Shown here: positions 19,949 to 30,484 of the stretch, piece after piece
How positions within the stretch are numbered: position 1 is the stretch's first letter
Layout: each line of letters opens with the position of its first letter
From: Phenylobacterium sp.
GTDB lineage: Bacteria > Pseudomonadota > Alphaproteobacteria > Caulobacterales > Caulobacteraceae
Direction of reading: 5' to 3'
NCBI RefSeq assembly: GCF_030693625.1
Contig: NZ_JAUYAF010000019.1
Location: 1-64,000 of the forward strand
DNA length: 64,000 nt
Notes under the pieces: model-generated
The model's input: the letters and a program-made list of their open reading frames with translations, nothing else
What the model was told of the DNA's origin: nothing
Database searches by the model: none
Translations under genes and position numbers: made by a program

Positions 19949-20025
19949 TGGCGCGCCCTGCAGGACTCGAACCTGCAACCGCCTGCTTAGAAGGCAGGTG
20001 CTCTATCCAGTTGAGCTAAGGGCGC
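19949..20025 (-). tRNA. tRNA-Arg(UCU), CCA encoded
   Basis: Read on the minus strand, a perfect 7-bp acceptor stem (GCGCCCT with AGGGCGC), D arm with AGCTCAACTGGATAGAGC, anticodon stem CTGCC/GGCAG-type with loop TTCTAAG (anticodon TCT), and T arm GGTTCGAGTCC. The CCA tail is encoded at 19951-19949 after discriminator G. Its 3' end faces metC, so an element integrated at its 3' end would lie to the left, where none is seen. Confidence 0.97.
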
Positions 20026-20155
20026 TAATTTTCACAAGGCGTTGCTGGATAAGGGGTTGCGGGTGCACCAGCAAGGAAACATTCTGAGACCGTCTGACTC
20101 GCGATTTCCCCACCGTCTGACTCCCGTTCGGCGGGCGTTCTAAAACCTCCCCAGC

Positions 20156-23295: not shown

Positions 23296-23370
23296 TGGTG
23301 GACGCGGCAGGGATTGAACCTGCGACCCTCCCCGTGTGAAGGGGATGCTCTCCCGCTTAGCTACGCGTCC
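23296..23370 (-). tRNA. tRNA-Val(CAC), CCA encoded
   Basis: Minus strand; 7-bp acceptor stem GGACGCG with CGCGTCC, discriminator A, encoded CCA (23298-23296), D arm TAGCTAAGCGGGAGAGC, anticodon stem-loop CCCC-TTCACAC-GGGG with anticodon CAC, and T arm GCAGGTTCAATCCCTGC. The 3' end faces left, toward the accessory strip. tRNA genes of this kind are common integration targets, but no second copy of the 3' end was found in this window. Confidence 0.96.
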
Positions 23371-23625: not shown

Positions 23626-23872
23626 GGGCACCTCACTACCAAACCAGCGCGGGTGCTGCCCAGAGCAAGTGCATTAATCTGACGTTTGGCTCCTAGACGG
23701 CCTTGGATCGGCAGGACCGTGGATTGCGATCGCCGCATCGCCATGAGCGGACATTCCCAACGGGTGAGGTGGGTGGATTGCAGACGCGAGCGCCCAATGC
23801 AGTCCAAGCTCAGCCGTTGACGTTTCCCCCCTAGTCGAACACCGTTACGGCTGCGGTTTGGGGGCTGCGCTC

Positions 23873-25693
23873 ATGGCGGACGGAATGACGACGCCGCGGG
23901 CGAAACGCTCGCGAAAGGCACGCCCGCCCACTACGCCCGATCCTATCGAGATCGCAATGGAGGCGGAGGCGGAGGGCCGCTCACCTGAAGGCATTGCCTA
24001 TCGGGTGCTGGAAAAGCAGGAGCGGCTGATCGGCTGGCAGATAGCTTCTGAGCGGGCCGGGTTCGCCCTGAGGGTGCTGACCGGGCTCGCTGGGCTGGCA
24101 GCCGCAACGGCGCTGAGCGTCATGGCCTGGCAGGCTAGCCGGTCGGATGGGCTCGTCGTGGAGGCCTTCTCCGTACCCCCGGCGCTGGTCTCGCGCGGCG
24201 CGACCGGCGAGGTGGTGGCGCGCGGCGTACTGGACCGGCTGGGCGAGCTGGACCGGGCCGCCAACTCGCTGCAATCGGTGCGCATTGCTGACGCCTGGAC
24301 CCAGGACACCAAGATCGAGGTGGCCCAGACCGGCGTCTCGCTGGACGACGTGCAGCGCCTGTTACGGCGCTGGCTGGGCCACGAGACCCACCTGACCGGC
24401 GAGGTGGTGCAGACGGCCACGGGAGTTCGCATCACGGCGCGGACCGGCGTGGGCCGTACGGTGACGGCGGAAGGCTCAGCCGAGCAGCTGCCGGAGCTCG
24501 CTAGACAGACGGGCGAGGCGTTGTTCCGCCAGGCACGGCCGGTGCAGTATGCGGAATACCTCTACCGAGGGGGGCGCTGGGCTGAGGCCAAGCCGCTACT
24601 CGCCCAGGTGCTGCAGACCAGTGATGATCCGCTGACACGGGCGGCGGCCGCAAATGCCCTGGGCGCGATCACCGCCTACTCAGAGTTCCGACCCGCTGAA
24701 GGCATCGAGTGGTTCCGCCAGGCGGCCGAGGGTCCGAACCGGCTGCTAGGGGCGATCGCCCTGCGGGACGCCGCCAGCGTTGCAGATGCGCTGGGGCATA
24801 ACCGAGAGAGCATCGTCCTCACCCGGCTGGCGCTCAAGCGGCTTGGCCACGAGCCCGGGGCTGTCGCGGACTGGTACCGGGCGGGCATTCGCGCCACGCT
24901 GGCCGCATCAGAATTCGACTATCACACGGCTTCGCGGCTGCTGCGGCCCTACGTGGGGCGCGCCAACGCCGGTTCGACCGGCGTCTATCGTGCCACCTAC
25001 GCGTCCTATCTGGCCGCCCTGCACGAAACTACGGCCGCGCGGCGGCTCGCCGTGACGCCGTATCCGCTGATAGAGCTGAGTTCGGAAAACTGGCCCGTGA
25101 CGCTCGCCATCGCACGTGCAGCGCGCGCACAAGGCGATGCAAGTCCGCGGATACTGGCGCTGGAAGCGTTCTCGCTGGTTCAACTGGGCCAGCCGGAGGC
25201 CGCGAAAAAGGTAATTGCGACGACGCCGGTGGACTGCTTCTTCTGCGCCCTGACCCGGGCGATGATCTTGTCACGCCAGGGGGATGCCGTCGGAGCCGAG
25301 CAGGCGTTCCGCACGGCGGAACTGCTCTATCCGGGGCAGATCAACACCCTGCTGTACTGGGGCCGCGAGCGGTTGGGGCGGGGCGACGCCCAAGGTGCGC
25401 TTCAGGTGTTCCGTCGCGCGGAGAAGCTCGCGCCGCGCTTCGCTGATCCGGCGGCCTGGTCGGGTGAGGCCCTGCTCGCCTTAGGCGACGACAAGGCCGC
25501 CGAGGAGGCCTTTCGCAAGGCGCAGCCGCTCGCCCCCCGCTGGGGCCGCCTGCACCTGAAGTGGGGCGAGGCGCTGGCCAAGCTGGGGAAGACCGCCGAA
25601 GCCAAGGCGAAGTTTTCCCAGGCAGCCGCCCTCGACCTCACGTCGGCGGAACGGGCCGAGTTGCAAAACGTGACCCGAAAGCGGACCAACTAG
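23873..25693 (+). CDS. TPR-repeat membrane protein
   Basis: 606 residues from ATG 23873. A basic cytoplasmic N-terminus (about 60 residues), one membrane span (ALRVLTGLAGLAAATALSVMAW), then a periplasmic part: an unknown domain (about 95-225, SVPPALVSRGATGEVVARGVLDRL) and a long TPR-like array to the C-terminus (YLYRGGRWAEAKPLLAQVLQ, AEQAFRTAELLYPG, ALQVFRRAEKLAPR, AEEAFRKAQPLAP). I recall similar anchor-plus-TPR proteins in Caulobacterales, some with an N-terminal DNA-binding domain, which this one lacks. Role unknown; probably a scaffold. High GC, host-like. Confidence 0.8.
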   Translation: MADGMTTPRAKRSRKARPPTTPDPIEIAMEAEAEGRSPEGIAYRVLEKQERLIGWQIASERAGFALRVLTGLAGLAAATALSVMAWQASRSDGLVVEAFSVPPALVSRGATGEVVARGVLDRLGELDRAANSLQSVRIADAWTQDTKIEVAQTGVSLDDVQRLLRRWLGHETHLTGEVVQTATGVRITARTGVGRTVTAEGSAEQLPELARQTGEALFRQARPVQYAEYLYRGGRWAEAKPLLAQVLQTSDDPLTRAAAANALGAITAYSEFRPAEGIEWFRQAAEGPNRLLGAIALRDAASVADALGHNRESIVLTRLALKRLGHEPGAVADWYRAGIRATLAASEFDYHTASRLLRPYVGRANAGSTGVYRATYASYLAALHETTAARRLAVTPYPLIELSSENWPVTLAIARAARAQGDASPRILALEAFSLVQLGQPEAAKKVIATTPVDCFFCALTRAMILSRQGDAVGAEQAFRTAELLYPGQINTLLYWGRERLGRGDAQGALQVFRRAEKLAPRFADPAAWSGEALLALGDDKAAEEAFRKAQPLAPRWGRLHLKWGEALAKLGKTAEAKAKFSQAAALDLTSAERAELQNVTRKRTN

Positions 25694-25963: not shown

Positions 25964-26764
25964 ATGTGCAACCTCTACGAACTCCACACGGATCTCTACG
26001 GCTGGGCCGACGCGCATGAGCAGCTGCTGGGCGAGCCGCTGCCCATGCCGGCCGCCGGATCTAACATTGACCTTACGTGGAAGCCGCAGCTCTACCCCGA
26101 CTATCGGGCGCCTATCCTGCGCAACACCGTCGGGGGTGGGCAAGAGATAGGCTTCGCTCGCTGGGGAATGCCGAGCTCAAAGTTCGCGCTGATGCAGGCG
26201 GCCGGCAAGCGGGCCGATAAGCTGCGGGCCAAGGGCAGGACAATCGACGACGCCGCGTTCGCCGATCTGCTGAAGATGGAGCCGGACAAGGGCACCACCA
26301 ACGTAAGGAACACCTCCAACGCCAAGGGGGAGATGAACAAGCACTGGGCGCCATGGCTGACCGTCGAGAGCCGGTGCGTCGTGCCGTTCACCGCCTTCAG
26401 CGAGCCCGATCAAGTTGGCGGCTCGCTGGAAACGATCTGGTTTGCCCGCGGGCAGGATCGGCCCCTCACCTACTTCGCTGGCGTGCACACGGCGGACTAC
26501 GGCTGCGTCCGGAAGATCCAGACCGGCTGGGAGACCTGCGATCTCTTCGCCTTCCTCACGACCGACGCGAACGCCGAGGTTGGAGCCTTTCACGACAAGG
26601 CGATGCCAGTGATCCTGACGACGGCCGAGGAGGTTCGGACCTGGATCTCGGCCCCGTGGGACGAGGCGAAAGCCCTGCAGCGACCGCTCCCCAACTGCAC
26701 GCTGGAAATTGTCGGGCGAGGCAAGGAGCTGGGCCCTACCCGTCCCGCGGCTTCACGATCCTGA
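25964..26764 (+). CDS. SRAP-domain (HMCES/YedK-type) protein
   Basis: 266 residues; SRAP proteins crosslink to abasic sites in single-stranded DNA through Cys2, which is present (MCNLYE). The rest of the site can be read as Asn113/Arg115 (TTNVRNTSN), Glu147 (CVVPFTAFSEP) and His210 (AFHDKAMPVILT). The Arg before the MPV block of typical members is Lys-Ala here, and the usual NxRxE box is altered to NVRNT. It belongs to a divergent subgroup that I have seen in alphaproteobacteria and phages. It sits just outside or at the left end of the prophage. Confidence 0.9.
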   Translation: MCNLYELHTDLYGWADAHEQLLGEPLPMPAAGSNIDLTWKPQLYPDYRAPILRNTVGGGQEIGFARWGMPSSKFALMQAAGKRADKLRAKGRTIDDAAFADLLKMEPDKGTTNVRNTSNAKGEMNKHWAPWLTVESRCVVPFTAFSEPDQVGGSLETIWFARGQDRPLTYFAGVHTADYGCVRKIQTGWETCDLFAFLTTDANAEVGAFHDKAMPVILTTAEEVRTWISAPWDEAKALQRPLPNCTLEIVGRGKELGPTRPAASRS

Positions 26765-26995: not shown

Positions 26996-27031
26996 AAAAA
27001 GCCCGCCGACCCTGTTGGGGGACGGCGGGCT
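26996..27031 (-). terminator. intrinsic terminator for the leftward operon
   Basis: Stem AGCCCGCCG (27000-27008) pairs with CGGCGGGCT (27023-27031), with a 14-base loop, followed on the minus strand by TTTTT (plus A-run 26996-27000). This is a classical Rho-independent terminator for transcription entering from the right, so it should end the three-gene module 27137-28793 and the late prophage transcript. Confidence 0.8.
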
Positions 27032-27136: not shown

Positions 27137-27538
27137 CTAAGGCTTACGCGCCCCCGCTTGAACAACCAAAACCGACCCTAAAATCGTCGCCGCCACGATG
27201 CCGAGCCCAATCAAAGGCGCCACCCCATCAGACCCGGCATCTACGATGCTTGCCCCAGCGACGATCGCGACCATTTCCTTCACATTCGGCGAGAGAATGT
27301 AGGCGCCCGTCAGCACAGTCATCGACAATACCCCGACAATGTTAGCGGCTCCGGCCGTAAACCGCTTTCCGGCCAGGTCCTTGAGCTCCGCCATAAGGGT
27401 CACCAACACGCCCCCCAGGGATACGTTGGCAAACTTGTCGAGGGCGACGAGGGCGAGAACGGCGACAACTAGGTAGAAGACTGTGGGCCAATTCACGCCG
27501 GCCACGATTGATTGGCCGATAGCTGCAAAGCCGCTCAA
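27137..27538 (-). CDS. three-helix membrane protein, module A gene 3
   Basis: 133 residues with three apparent membrane spans: TVFYLVVAVLALVALDKFA, NIVGVLSMTVLTGAYIL and LIGLGIVAATILGSVLVV. Start is a TTG overlapping the stop of the preceding gene (TTGA). It is the last of three overlapping genes (28793-27137) ending at an intrinsic terminator. It is too far from the lysis cassette to be an obvious holin; a membrane effector is one possibility. The module is less GC-rich than the phage structural genes. Not recognised. Confidence 0.65.
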   Translation of the reverse strand: MSGFAAIGQSIVAGVNWPTVFYLVVAVLALVALDKFANVSLGGVLVTLMAELKDLAGKRFTAGAANIVGVLSMTVLTGAYILSPNVKEMVAIVAGASIVDAGSDGVAPLIGLGIVAATILGSVLVVQAGARKP

Positions 27539-28041
27539 CGCGCAGACCCAAATGGCGCAAAGCTCATAAAGACGAAGGTCATCCCGCTCATGAAGAGTAG
27601 CACGACGAAGAGCGGATGAACTACAACCGAGCCTGCCGCGAAATTCCCAAGCGCTCCAGCGAGTGCCAGGAAAATGACAATCGCACCAACAATTCGAACG
27701 GTTGGGCGCAGACCAATCATGGGCTCCTCCGAGGCCGCCACCATTTCGGTCGGTTCATAATGCGCAAATTCTGCAATTTCATGGCCAGCGCACGGTGCTG
27801 GAGCGACATATTCTGAGATCGGAAACGGAAGAGTTCCGTAGGCGAATATGTCGCGGCGCTCGCGGATGTACACTGTCCCCATTGGAGCGCGCACCAAACC
27901 GCTGGCAGGATGATCTCCCTCCGGAGACACAAACTGACGCAAGGAGAACTGTGGTTCGTAGGTGAAGCCTGTCAATGGTCCAGGCGCAGTCGGCAAGCCG
28001 GGCGCGCGGGGCCGTTCCGAATCCTCAAACGGCTCGGTCAC
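27535..28041 (-). CDS. tail-anchored two-span membrane protein, module A gene 2
   Basis: 168 residues: an extended soluble N-terminal part of about 105 residues (rich in Pro, Phe and acidic residues; FTYEPQFSLRQFVSPEGD), then two C-terminal membrane spans (TVRIVGAIVIFLALAGALGNF and HPLFVVLLFMSGMTFVFMSF). GTG start overlaps the stop of the preceding gene (GTGA) and its stop overlaps the next start. The layout is a cytoplasmic sensor or adaptor part joined to a membrane hairpin. Family unknown. Confidence 0.65.
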   Translation of the reverse strand: MTEPFEDSERPRAPGLPTAPGPLTGFTYEPQFSLRQFVSPEGDHPASGLVRAPMGTVYIRERRDIFAYGTLPFPISEYVAPAPCAGHEIAEFAHYEPTEMVAASEEPMIGLRPTVRIVGAIVIFLALAGALGNFAAGSVVVHPLFVVLLFMSGMTFVFMSFAPFGSAR

Positions 28042-28793
28042 GGTCGAACCTGATGTAGAATGGCGTTAGCGAGATTGTCGCCGAGCAAATCACCCGACTG
28101 ATCAATCAATTCGACAAGCTCTCCTACCAGCTGCTCGAAACGCGAGCCATTCTGATGACCACGCAACGGCTTCGAGTTTAGATCGAATTTGACGGTGGCA
28201 ACTTGTACAGAAGGGGCGTCGACAAAATCCGGGTCGAAGTGAATAAAACCCCCTGCAGAAGCTGGAAGTTGGATCTCAAGTCTGTTGACGATCTGACACT
28301 CCACGAGTGAATTTGTCTCGGCGGAGTTGTTAGCGACCATTACGCTAAAAGCCTCAAATCCCTGCGGCTTCGGGCGCTTGAATATTGAGCTATAGAGATC
28401 ATCAATTCCGCTTGGGATGTCTGCGACCGGAAACTCACAGACGAGAACCACACCCTCGTAAAAATTTGAGTGGTCGGTGTAACGGTCCTCAAGCCGCTCC
28501 ATGAGCTGTATTGCATTCGTAAGCGCAGATCGCAGGCCAGCTTTCGGCAGCCCCCCTTTGAAGCTCAAAGCCAGCTGGACGGCGTTCTCCGCAGCAATCA
28601 ACGTCCGCTTTCCATCACCCATAGTGAATAGGGTCGGATCCGGCATAGGACCTGGGACCTTGGCGACCGACTTCGCGTTGATGAACTGAGCGAAGTGGTC
28701 TTCGAAAAAGAACTGCTGCCGGCGCAAGTCCTCTTTGGGAAACCGGCGCACCAAGTTGACATCGATATCAGATCGAAAAATCGGTTGAGCCAC
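28038..28793 (-). CDS. soluble protein of unknown function, module A gene 1
   Basis: 251 residues with no membrane span or signal peptide. Starts at GTG 28793 after GGGGAG; begins MAQPIFRSDIDVNLVRRFPKED, includes a GDGKRTLIAAENAVQLAL helix region and an RFEQLVGELVELIDQSGD C-terminal helix. The gene is visibly AT-richer than the phage late genes, suggesting separate acquisition. With its two membrane partners it forms a cargo module that could be a phage-encoded defence or superinfection-exclusion system. That is inference from layout only; I recognise no domain. Confidence 0.65.
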   Translation of the reverse strand: MAQPIFRSDIDVNLVRRFPKEDLRRQQFFFEDHFAQFINAKSVAKVPGPMPDPTLFTMGDGKRTLIAAENAVQLALSFKGGLPKAGLRSALTNAIQLMERLEDRYTDHSNFYEGVVLVCEFPVADIPSGIDDLYSSIFKRPKPQGFEAFSVMVANNSAETNSLVECQIVNRLEIQLPASAGGFIHFDPDFVDAPSVQVATVKFDLNSKPLRGHQNGSRFEQLVGELVELIDQSGDLLGDNLANAILHQVRP

Positions 28794-28806
28794 TTAAAAT
28801 TTCTCC

Positions 28807-28832
28807 CCTACGTCGCATACCGTAGGTCCTAC
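28807..28832. promoter_or_regulatory. interleaved palindromes upstream of module A
   Basis: CCTACG (28807-28812) and CGTAGG (28821-28826) form an inverted repeat, overlapped by GTAGGTCCTAC (28822-28832). It lies 14-39 bp upstream of the GTG start of the module's first gene. The position fits an operator or a promoter-proximal hairpin; a possible -35 TTGCCT lies further upstream. Whether it is a promoter is not shown by the sequence alone. Confidence 0.4.
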
Positions 28833-28885: not shown

Positions 28886-29170
28886 CTAGCCATCCGGCTT
28901 TCGGCAGGCGATGATCGCGGGCTCTACCTCGGCAAGCCTCTGTTTCCGCAGCAGGCGGCCGGCGGCAATGAGCTGATAGCGATCAGCCGCCCCGCCAGCA
29001 GCCTTCAAGGCCGCGTCTTCGTCGGGATAAGGCTTGGGCGCCGGGAGCTTTTCGCTGATGCATGAGACCGGAACCGGCACGTTCACGGTGACGATCTTCA
29101 CCACAGGCTCGGACGCCTTGGTGGCGCAGGCGGCCAGCGACAGGGCGGCGAGGGCGATCAGGGCTTTCAT
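28886..29170 (-). CDS. outer-membrane spanin subunit (Rz1-like lipoprotein)
   Basis: 94 residues starting MKALIALAALSLAACATK: a signal peptide with lipobox Cys15, followed by a proline-containing linker (VPVPVSCISEKLPAPKPYPDED) as in Rz1-type o-spanins. Its start overlaps the stop of the inner-membrane spanin by 4 bp (ATGA). After host inner-membrane and wall breakage, i- and o-spanin together disrupt the outer membrane. The o-spanin is longer than lambda Rz1, with an extra basic C-terminal helix. Confidence 0.8.
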   Translation of the reverse strand: MKALIALAALSLAACATKASEPVVKIVTVNVPVPVSCISEKLPAPKPYPDEDAALKAAGGAADRYQLIAAGRLLRKQRLAEVEPAIIACRKPDG

Positions 29171-29574
29171 TGCAGGCTCCTTAGAACGGCGGTGTCGGCG
29201 GATTCCATGCGCGCGCAGGCGTCGATACCGGCCGGTGGGTTCCTCAGAAGCTTGGCGGCGCGCGCCTCTGCCCCCGCCCTGCCCCTCAGGGCCTGGGTGA
29301 CGGCCTCTTCTGCAGCGGCGGTACGGATGGAGGCTTCGGTCTCCAGACGCTTCACGGCGGCGTTCTGACCGCGCATGGAGGCCTCCAGGCCCGCCTCGTT
29401 GCGTTGGCACTGGTCCAAGTCCGTTTTCGCCACAGACAGCGCCATCTCGGCGGCATCGGCGCGGCGCGTCTGGTGGACCTTGCCCACGCACTGGGTGAGC
29501 GCCAGGACCAGGAACAGCAGAGCGAAGGCTGACGAGATCGGCCCGGCCAATCGTGAGGTTAGGATCGCGAGCAT
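29167..29574 (-). CDS. inner-membrane spanin subunit (Rz-like)
   Basis: 135 residues with one N-terminal membrane span (SSAFALLFLVLALTQCVG) and a long periplasmic helical/coiled-coil part (AEMALSVAKTDLDQCQRNEAGLEASMRGQNAAVKRLETEASI), the form of an i-spanin. Coupled by a 4-bp overlap to the lipoprotein downstream. It follows the endolysin and a 27-residue membrane peptide. Confidence 0.8.
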   Translation of the reverse strand: MLAILTSRLAGPISSAFALLFLVLALTQCVGKVHQTRRADAAEMALSVAKTDLDQCQRNEAGLEASMRGQNAAVKRLETEASIRTAAAEEAVTQALRGRAGAEARAAKLLRNPPAGIDACARMESADTAVLRSLQ

Positions 29575-29582
29575 GCAGGCTC

Positions 29583-29666
29583 CTATCGGAATATGCGGAA
29601 GATGAAGGTGACGACAGCCCAGATGCCGGCGAGCGCGGTCACGGTGATCAGGAGGGCGGGGCTCAC
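29583..29666 (-). CDS. 27-residue single-span membrane peptide in the lysis cassette
   Basis: A GTG start overlaps the endolysin stop (GTGA) and the frame runs 27 codons to a TAG at 29583-29585. The peptide is nearly one membrane span (ALLITVTALAGIWAVVTFIF) with a basic C-terminus. It lies between the endolysin and the i-spanin, 8 bp from the latter. It may be a minute holin/pinholin-like or regulatory peptide. The coupling and hydrophobicity are the only evidence. Confidence 0.55.
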   Translation of the reverse strand: MSPALLITVTALAGIWAVVTFIFRIFR

Positions 29667-30070
29667 GTCAGCTCCCAGTGGGGTCCATCCGTCTCCCCCT
29701 TCTCGCCGATGATTCCGTCACCATCCCAGTCACGCCCCCATCGGACGCCCGCGCCCAGCTCGCCGGCCGCCTGCATCATCGCCTTGTTCACCAGTGCGAA
29801 CTTGGCCGGATCCTTCCAGTCATAGGGGGCCGGCAGCAGATCCACCGCCTTGCCCTCGATGTGTTTGGACTTCAGGGTCCAGGTGACGACCTTGCCAGGG
29901 ACGGTGCGGCCTTGGGCGTAGAGCTGTTTCTGGCGCTCCGGGGGGCGGACGCCCTCCACCACCATGAAGTCCACGGCGGTGATCTGGATCGCGCGCTCGA
30001 CGACGGCGACAAGTCGAGGGTCAACGCCCTGCAGTTTGGCGCGCGACTTCGCGCCCAGCGAGTAGGTCAT
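29663..30070 (-). CDS. endolysin, M15-type peptidase (L-Ala-D-Glu endopeptidase)
   Basis: 135 residues from ATG 30070 (GGAG Shine-Dalgarno eight bases upstream). Zinc-ligand pattern of the VanY/T5-endolysin fold: His70 and Asp77 (SKHIEGKAVDLLP) and His131 (PHWEL). An acidic DWDGDG loop (114-119) resembles the calcium-binding site reported for T5 endolysin. It cuts peptidoglycan cross-bridging peptides at the end of infection. No signal sequence, so it needs a holin; two holin-like proteins lie upstream. Confidence 0.9.
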   Translation of the reverse strand: MTYSLGAKSRAKLQGVDPRLVAVVERAIQITAVDFMVVEGVRPPERQKQLYAQGRTVPGKVVTWTLKSKHIEGKAVDLLPAPYDWKDPAKFALVNKAMMQAAGELGAGVRWGRDWDGDGIIGEKGETDGPHWELT

Positions 30071-30106
30071 GGCAGTCTCCAATTGTGGGGAGGCGTCGGG
30101 AGGCGG

Positions 30107-30484
30107 TTAGGCGCCGGGGGTCGCCGAAGTCGTGGTCACCGCTGCGCCATCCGGCGGGGTGACAGTGGTCTTGGTCACGGTCTCGATGCGGGTGGCGTGT
30201 TCGTCCTGATCAATGGACCCAGACACCCCGTCTCTGCCGCCCTTGAAGCTGACGTTCAGGCCGGTGATCGCGGCTAGAGCCACCAGCACCAGCACCTCAA
30301 CCCCGACAAGCAGGTAGAACATCGCGTCGAGTTGCTGACCGGGGCGCTGGGATGCCCACGGGCCGCGCCAGATGGCCCAGGTCCCGACCGCAAGTAGAAG
30401 GGTCAGAACCGCCGCGCCCCCGATCTGCGCCCATATCTTCACCGGGGCGGCGGCAAGCATGGCCTTCCAGATGCGAGCGATCAT
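30107..30484 (-). CDS. holin-like two-span membrane protein
   Basis: 125 residues: two membrane spans (WAQIGGAAVLTLLLAVGTWAIW, and MFYLLVGVEVLVLVALAAIT) and a hydrophilic C-terminal tail rich in Thr/Asp (SIDQDEHATRIETVTKTTVTP). Directly upstream of the endolysin and 4 bp overlapping the next membrane protein upstream. Position, size and topology suit a holin or holin partner; no named family recognised. Confidence 0.65.
   Translation of the reverse strand: MIARIWKAMLAAAPVKIWAQIGGAAVLTLLLAVGTWAIWRGPWASQRPGQQLDAMFYLLVGVEVLVLVALAAITGLNVSFKGGRDGVSGSIDQDEHATRIETVTKTTVTPPDGAAVTTTSATPGA

Follow-up and report, generated by a model that had tools for sequence, protein, structure and literature searches.

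What do three overlapping genes, lying beside the lysis genes of a Phenylobacterium prophage and predicted to code for one soluble and two membrane proteins, do for the element that carries them or for its host? They belong to a stretch of 64,000 nucleotides (positions 1 to 64,000 of contig NZ_JAUYAF010000019.1, forward strand), referred to here as the window, in which the trio and the signals around it are arranged as follows:

28038..28793, minus strand: gene 1, 251 codons, GTG start, without predicted membrane spans; proposed sensor
27535..28041, minus strand: gene 2, 168 codons, about 116 residues followed by two predicted C-terminal membrane spans; proposed membrane adaptor
27137..27538, minus strand: gene 3, 133 codons, three predicted membrane spans; proposed membrane effector
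28803..28809, minus strand: likely ribosome-binding site AGGGGAG, 9 bases ahead of the GTG start of gene 1
28807..28832, no strand assigned: inverted repeats CCTACG-8-CGTAGG, overlapping GTAGGTCCTAC, upstream of gene 1; possible operator
26996..27031, minus strand: intrinsic terminator 3' of gene 3 (-28.8 kcal/mol, z -4.8, equalled by 0 of 200 shuffles)

Are these frames genes at all? The open reading frame listing gives proteins of 251, 168 and 133 residues between 28793 and 27137 on the minus strand, as a preliminary description of this DNA had stated, and the GTGA and TTGA overlaps that it reported are present as 4-base overlaps at both junctions. A comparable chain (130 or more codons per frame, 540 or more altogether, joins within 20 bases) arose in one of 20,000 random sequences generated by a first-order Markov model with the same dinucleotide make-up and read on one strand; because of this rarity and of the overlaps, the three frames are taken as real genes. 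The G+C content is lowest at the second codon position in all three, a gene-like pattern. Decaying or otherwise non-functional sequence would fit with the absence of relatives and with a codon use that is unusual for the genome, but three open frames that tile the stretch with 4-base overlaps, a likely ribosome-binding site, evenly placed spans and a terminator all speak against it, and we consider decay very improbable.

The composition of the trio is foreign to its surroundings. It had been described as AT-richer, and this holds against five genes of the lysis region (52.5, 57.6 and 59.5% G+C for genes 1, 2 and 3, versus 61-68%). Own-frame codon log-odds per codon amount to -0.25, -0.35 and -0.06 for genes 1, 2 and 3, while two lysis genes reach 0.30 and 0.48, and for genes 1 and 2 an antisense frame outscores the own frame in codon use; the trio thus matches poorly the codon use of the other genes on the contig. 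This poor fit, together with the low G+C content, suggests that the three genes may have arrived from elsewhere. Around them, no flanking repeats of an inserted unit (direct repeats of at least 8 bases, inverted repeats of 9 bases) were found.

The terminator expected downstream of gene 3 is confirmed and strong, as the values listed above indicate. The inverted repeat reported upstream of gene 1 is present too, though its fold is unremarkable, being equalled by 14 of 200 shuffles. It was rejected as an operator, since its copies in the window carry no significance: with up to 2 mismatches, they are no more numerous elsewhere in the window than expected by chance. Upstream of the trio, the best match to a sigma-70-type promoter was equalled in 293 of 300 shuffles, and the best match to a Caulobacter-type promoter in 26 of 300. 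No terminator was predicted between the lysis genes and the trio, by a scan that also missed the real terminator at 26996-27031.

How deep in the prophage does the trio lie, and what surrounds it? The features needed to answer this are the following:

19985..20026, no strand assigned: left copy of a 42-base repeat, likely attL, in the 5' half of tRNA-Arg(tct)
28886..29170, minus strand: outer spanin-like gene (Rz1 position), weak match to the Rz-like spanin family phrog_456 (E 0.0033)
29167..29574, minus strand: inner spanin-like gene (Rz position), match to an unnamed PHROG (E 3.8e-6) and to an Rz-like spanin (E 0.055)
29663..30082, minus strand: endolysin, phrog_465 (E 3.7e-47), with Peptidase_M15_4 at E 2.7e-4, under the Pfam cut-off
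30107..30484, minus strand: two-span protein just before the endolysin, likely holin by position
contig 67581-68807: integrase gene, phrog_1 (E 2.1e-21)
contig 68915-68956: right copy of the 42-base repeat, likely attR, just past the integrase gene

The two copies of the repeat are identical over 42 bases, the right one lying outside the window, and they are likely the attachment sites attL and attR. Because this pair bounds an element of about 49 kb, the trio is placed 7.1 kb inside the prophage; the preliminary description, which had put it at the left prophage edge, was mistaken, as the likely attachment repeat is found 7 kb further left, in tRNA-Arg. One tail-region protein, 45% identical, relates the element to Caulobacter phage DMCA. 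The element also bears a tRNA-Val(cac) at 23296-23370 and a gene for a TPR protein at 23858-25693, whose relatives are found on the host's own contig C1 (181818-184383, in pieces 85%, 44% and 42% identical); with matches at E <=1e-5 in 6 of 30 genomes, own genome included, the TPR gene is no core gene.

That the trio comes after the lysis genes proved right, as an endolysin and a spanin-like pair precede it, the spanin matches being weak. The outer spanin-like gene, which is the immediate upstream neighbour of the trio, is 50% identical to a gene of the related stretch L068, and the inner one 36%; a viral scan with the Rz1-like gene gave no match. The two-span protein encoded ahead of the endolysin has no family match of its own, and its 60% identical relative in L067 stands beside a different hydrolase-like gene (Glyco_hydro_19, E 9.4e-5, under the Pfam cut-off).

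Could the trio then be an accessory part of lysis, expressed by read-through of the late operon, with genes 2 and 3 acting like holin and antiholin and gene 1 regulating the timing? It starts 92 bases past the spanin-like genes on the same strand, no terminator is predicted in between, and genes 2 and 3 are of holin size and span number; small membrane proteins encoded near endolysin and spanin-like genes are a trait shared with phage holins and antiholins. On the other hand, neither protein matches a holin family in Pfam, NCBIfam or PHROG, and the case in which gene 3 would be a known holin, named beforehand as fatal to a defence role, was not encountered in these collections. The trio sits after the endolysin and not before it, the two-span gene at 30107-30484 is a better holin candidate by position, an endolysin and spanin-like genes are already there, and the composition of the trio is foreign to that of the lysis genes. 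A part in lysis is therefore judged unlikely.

A comparison set of 35 stretches of related phages and prophages was gathered, 21 through the tail-region protein and 14 through the endolysin; each stretch is a part of a phage, one of barely 1.2 kb, and a gene counted as absent is absent from that part. On this understanding, the 35 stretches contain no match at E 0.1 to any trio protein. What follows the lysis genes varies among them: in L094, L095 and L100 an integrase gene lies no more than about 2 kb away, in L068 this place is occupied by an ATP-grasp gene, and L067 has there an SRAP (SOS-response-associated peptidase), a DUF202 protein and a LuxR-type regulator. Relatives of SRAP occur in 2 of the 35 stretches (66% identical in L066, 52% in L067), in both cases beyond the lysis genes. 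The foreign composition, the absence from the 35 stretches and the variable content of the slot support the reading of the trio as accessory prophage cargo. Of the cargo and defence role that had been put forward, the first part is thus sustained, while the second, defence or exclusion, found no backing from a domain, a match in the defence library or a relative.

In the present prophage, an SRAP gene (25964-26764) adjoins the trio. The ATP-grasp gene of L068 (14271-15014) is of the R2K type (PF14243, E 1.8e-18) and convergent with the spanin-like genes.

The trio resembles prophage morons in its foreign composition, its terminator and its variable slot, and differs from them in that no promoter of its own was found. 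Does it belong to some other lysogenic conversion cassette, acting on the host through membrane stress, transport, competition or a toxin-antitoxin pair? Slot and composition would suit any moron, and the same place is taken up in related phages by genes for a regulator, an ATP-grasp protein or a DUF202 protein, but no domain of such a function was detected in the trio with Pfam, NCBIfam, PHROG or PADLOC, and we hold this to be a rather improbable explanation.

The absence of a recognised domain, already remarked upon in the preliminary description, extends to every collection used. Pfam, NCBIfam and PHROGs gave nothing above chance for the three proteins, and the defence models of PADLOC-DB 2.0.0 no family at E up to 10. 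For gene 1, Pfam families and PDB sequences likewise yielded nothing at E up to 10, and the matches of genes 2 and 3 to PDB sequences, at E 0.69 and above, were read as chance. Among 5.8 billion proteins, each of the three matches only itself, in a search that reaches relatives of similar length sharing exact 5-residue words. Translated searches (tblastn) were without match for all three proteins in phages and for gene 1 in plasmids, as were viral contig scans for genes 2 and 3. The one viral match of gene 1, in L002, to a protein that we take from its start to be a class II glutamine amidotransferase, was rejected, the stretch LFTMGDGK present in both being itself a search pattern.

When 199 genomes of the host's family were searched, gene 1 found nothing besides itself better than E 0.07, gene 2 one other match below 0.01 (E 0.0088) and gene 3 four (E 0.0034 to 0.0090), all partial and falling in open frames 285 to 615 residues long; these matches of genes 2 and 3 were taken as chance, because about two are expected with 199 genomes and because gene 3 is hydrophobic. 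The trio proteins are, as far as sequence comparison goes, orphans in the collections searched. New are the sequences of the trio; its kind, prophage cargo that possibly serves exclusion, is familiar.

One lead was followed further, namely that gene 1 would be a very distant relative of the family TIGR04255 and the trio a membrane-effector version of the cassette layout that this family heads. Gene 1 has a similar length (around 250 residues) and a similar predicted order of strands and helices, and in an alignment with 34 members it keeps three invariant columns (P4, R104 and R250). At 56 of the 73 TIGR04255 loci (at least 5 of the 73 being repeats of another) the first downstream frame either abuts the family gene or overlaps it, a layout like that of the trio. 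The mean pLDDT of the AlphaFold model of gene 1 rose from 34.3 to 60.3 with the 34 TIGR04255 rows, a suggestive comparison without control, and the rise may stem from the added rows alone.

The profile scores go against the lead. With a 64-sequence profile gene 1 scores -0.2 bits, which 161 of 2000 shuffles attain, as do 12 of 639 natural frames, including its own copy; with a 55-sequence profile it scores 0.7 bits, reached by 67 of 2000 shuffles and 8 of 639 natural frames. Three smaller profiles give 1.1, 0.8 and -1.9 bits, scores that 37, 38 and 402 shuffles out of 2000 attain, and profile-profile comparison yields P-values of 0.07 to 0.51. The nearly invariant ITD motif of the family reads ILH in gene 1, no NCBIfam match is obtained at the curated cut-off of TIGR04255 (30 bits), and the host's own genome contains no match to the family. 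The trio shares with these cassettes a first gene of about 250 residues and three overlapping genes, but its partners have two and three predicted spans, whereas a partner with at least two spans occurs among the next two frames at none of the 73 TIGR04255 loci. As the scores do not exceed those of shuffles, gene 1 was not filed under TIGR04255, and a very distant kinship is considered quite improbable.

With three proteins devoid of relatives in the collections searched, any function has to be read from the layout, and this begins with topology. Hydropathy agrees with the earlier picture of one soluble, one two-span and one three-span protein: no span is predicted in gene 1, two in gene 2 (residues 117-135 and 144-162) and three in gene 3 (residues 15-33, 64-82 and 108-126). 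Because arginines precede the first span of gene 2 and end its chain, its front part of 116 residues is suggested to lie on the cytoplasmic side.

Is the trio, then, a prophage-borne exclusion (abortive-infection) module directed against other phages? This is tentatively preferred as the likeliest reading, ahead of lysis control or of another lysogenic function, even if its own chances fall short of even. The product of gene 1, cytoplasmic, would sense a product of the incoming phage; a hairpin of two spans would anchor the product of gene 2 in the inner membrane with its front part in the cytoplasm, and gene 3, with its three spans, would act as channel or stopper. When gene 1 meets the phage product, the signal would be relayed through gene 2 to gene 3, which would collapse the membrane potential ahead of maturation of the invader. 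The more specific proposal of a three-component exclusion system made of soluble sensor, two-span adaptor with a cytoplasmic domain and three-span effector, belonging to a lineage seen nowhere else and achieving with three orphan proteins what takes RexAB two, is a doubtful one. Exclusion would need expression in the lysogen. Late expression of the trio is possible, because it shares its direction with the lysis genes and the scan predicted no terminator in between, and this counts against exclusion, as does the finding of no convincing promoter upstream of the trio.

The best known precedent for such a layout is RexAB, with RexA as the presumed sensor of infection and RexB as the presumed ion channel that opens. 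Other pairs share this division: in Pseudomonas putida, PP_5643/PP_5644 associate a DNA-binding cytoplasmic protein with a membrane effector of four predicted spans (PMC12894663), and mycobacteriophages Sbash and Butters and the Gordonia phage CarolAnn bear soluble/membrane pairs, Sbash gp30/gp31 being presented without known homologues (PMC7542560). Like the RexAB-type systems (lambda RexA/RexB, PP_5643/PP_5644, Sbash gp30/gp31, CarolAnn gp44/gp43), the trio consists of adjacent prophage-borne genes, and members of this type may be without detectable homologues (PMC7542560 and PMC12894663), as the trio is.

These systems, however, comprise two genes and not three, and pair one soluble protein with one small multi-span membrane protein, whereas the trio has one soluble and two membrane proteins; in the membrane parts compared in PMC7542560 all four spans are in one protein, while hydropathy distributes two and three over two proteins of the trio. 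No sequence link of gene 1 to RexA appears in Pfam or among PDB sequences at E up to 10; a kinship of fold is conceivable. By the two features tested, RexA sequence and a single four-span protein, the trio is, on predicted properties, not a RexAB member.

A literature search on Caulobacter phages, prophages and superinfection exclusion brought up nothing on such a trio, judged by titles and abstract starts. The tripartite Caulobacter LypABC, a peptidase/ATPase system (PMC13236601), is not linked here to the trio.

Should the trio exclude phages, it would represent a membrane system triggered by infection and invisible to homology-based defence scans, all three proteins being without relatives in the collections searched. 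Such a case would illustrate how immunity carried by prophages can slip past these scans, and further systems of this kind might be sought in Caulobacteraceae prophages, in the slot that separates the lysis genes from SRAP. If instead it serves lysis control or is another moron, it would be an ordinary, though orphan, cargo cassette.

A side observation concerns the TIGR04255 loci (L077-L091 and L118-L178). The family heads a modular three-gene cassette: in a scan of 10 partner proteins, third genes include a HEPN protein (L161, PF05168, E 5.4e-7) and a PIN protein (L166, PF01850, E 5.8e-19), and most of the others are unnamed. The arrangement resembles a system whose effectors can be exchanged, and the name TIGR04255 does not occur in the set of papers searched. 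The family is also present in six viral contigs (L173-L178), and one member of it shows that the host shares its family with Caulobacter sp. S45: the copy in locus L078, from a genome of the host's family (G010), is 100% identical to the copy in L141, which comes from that strain.
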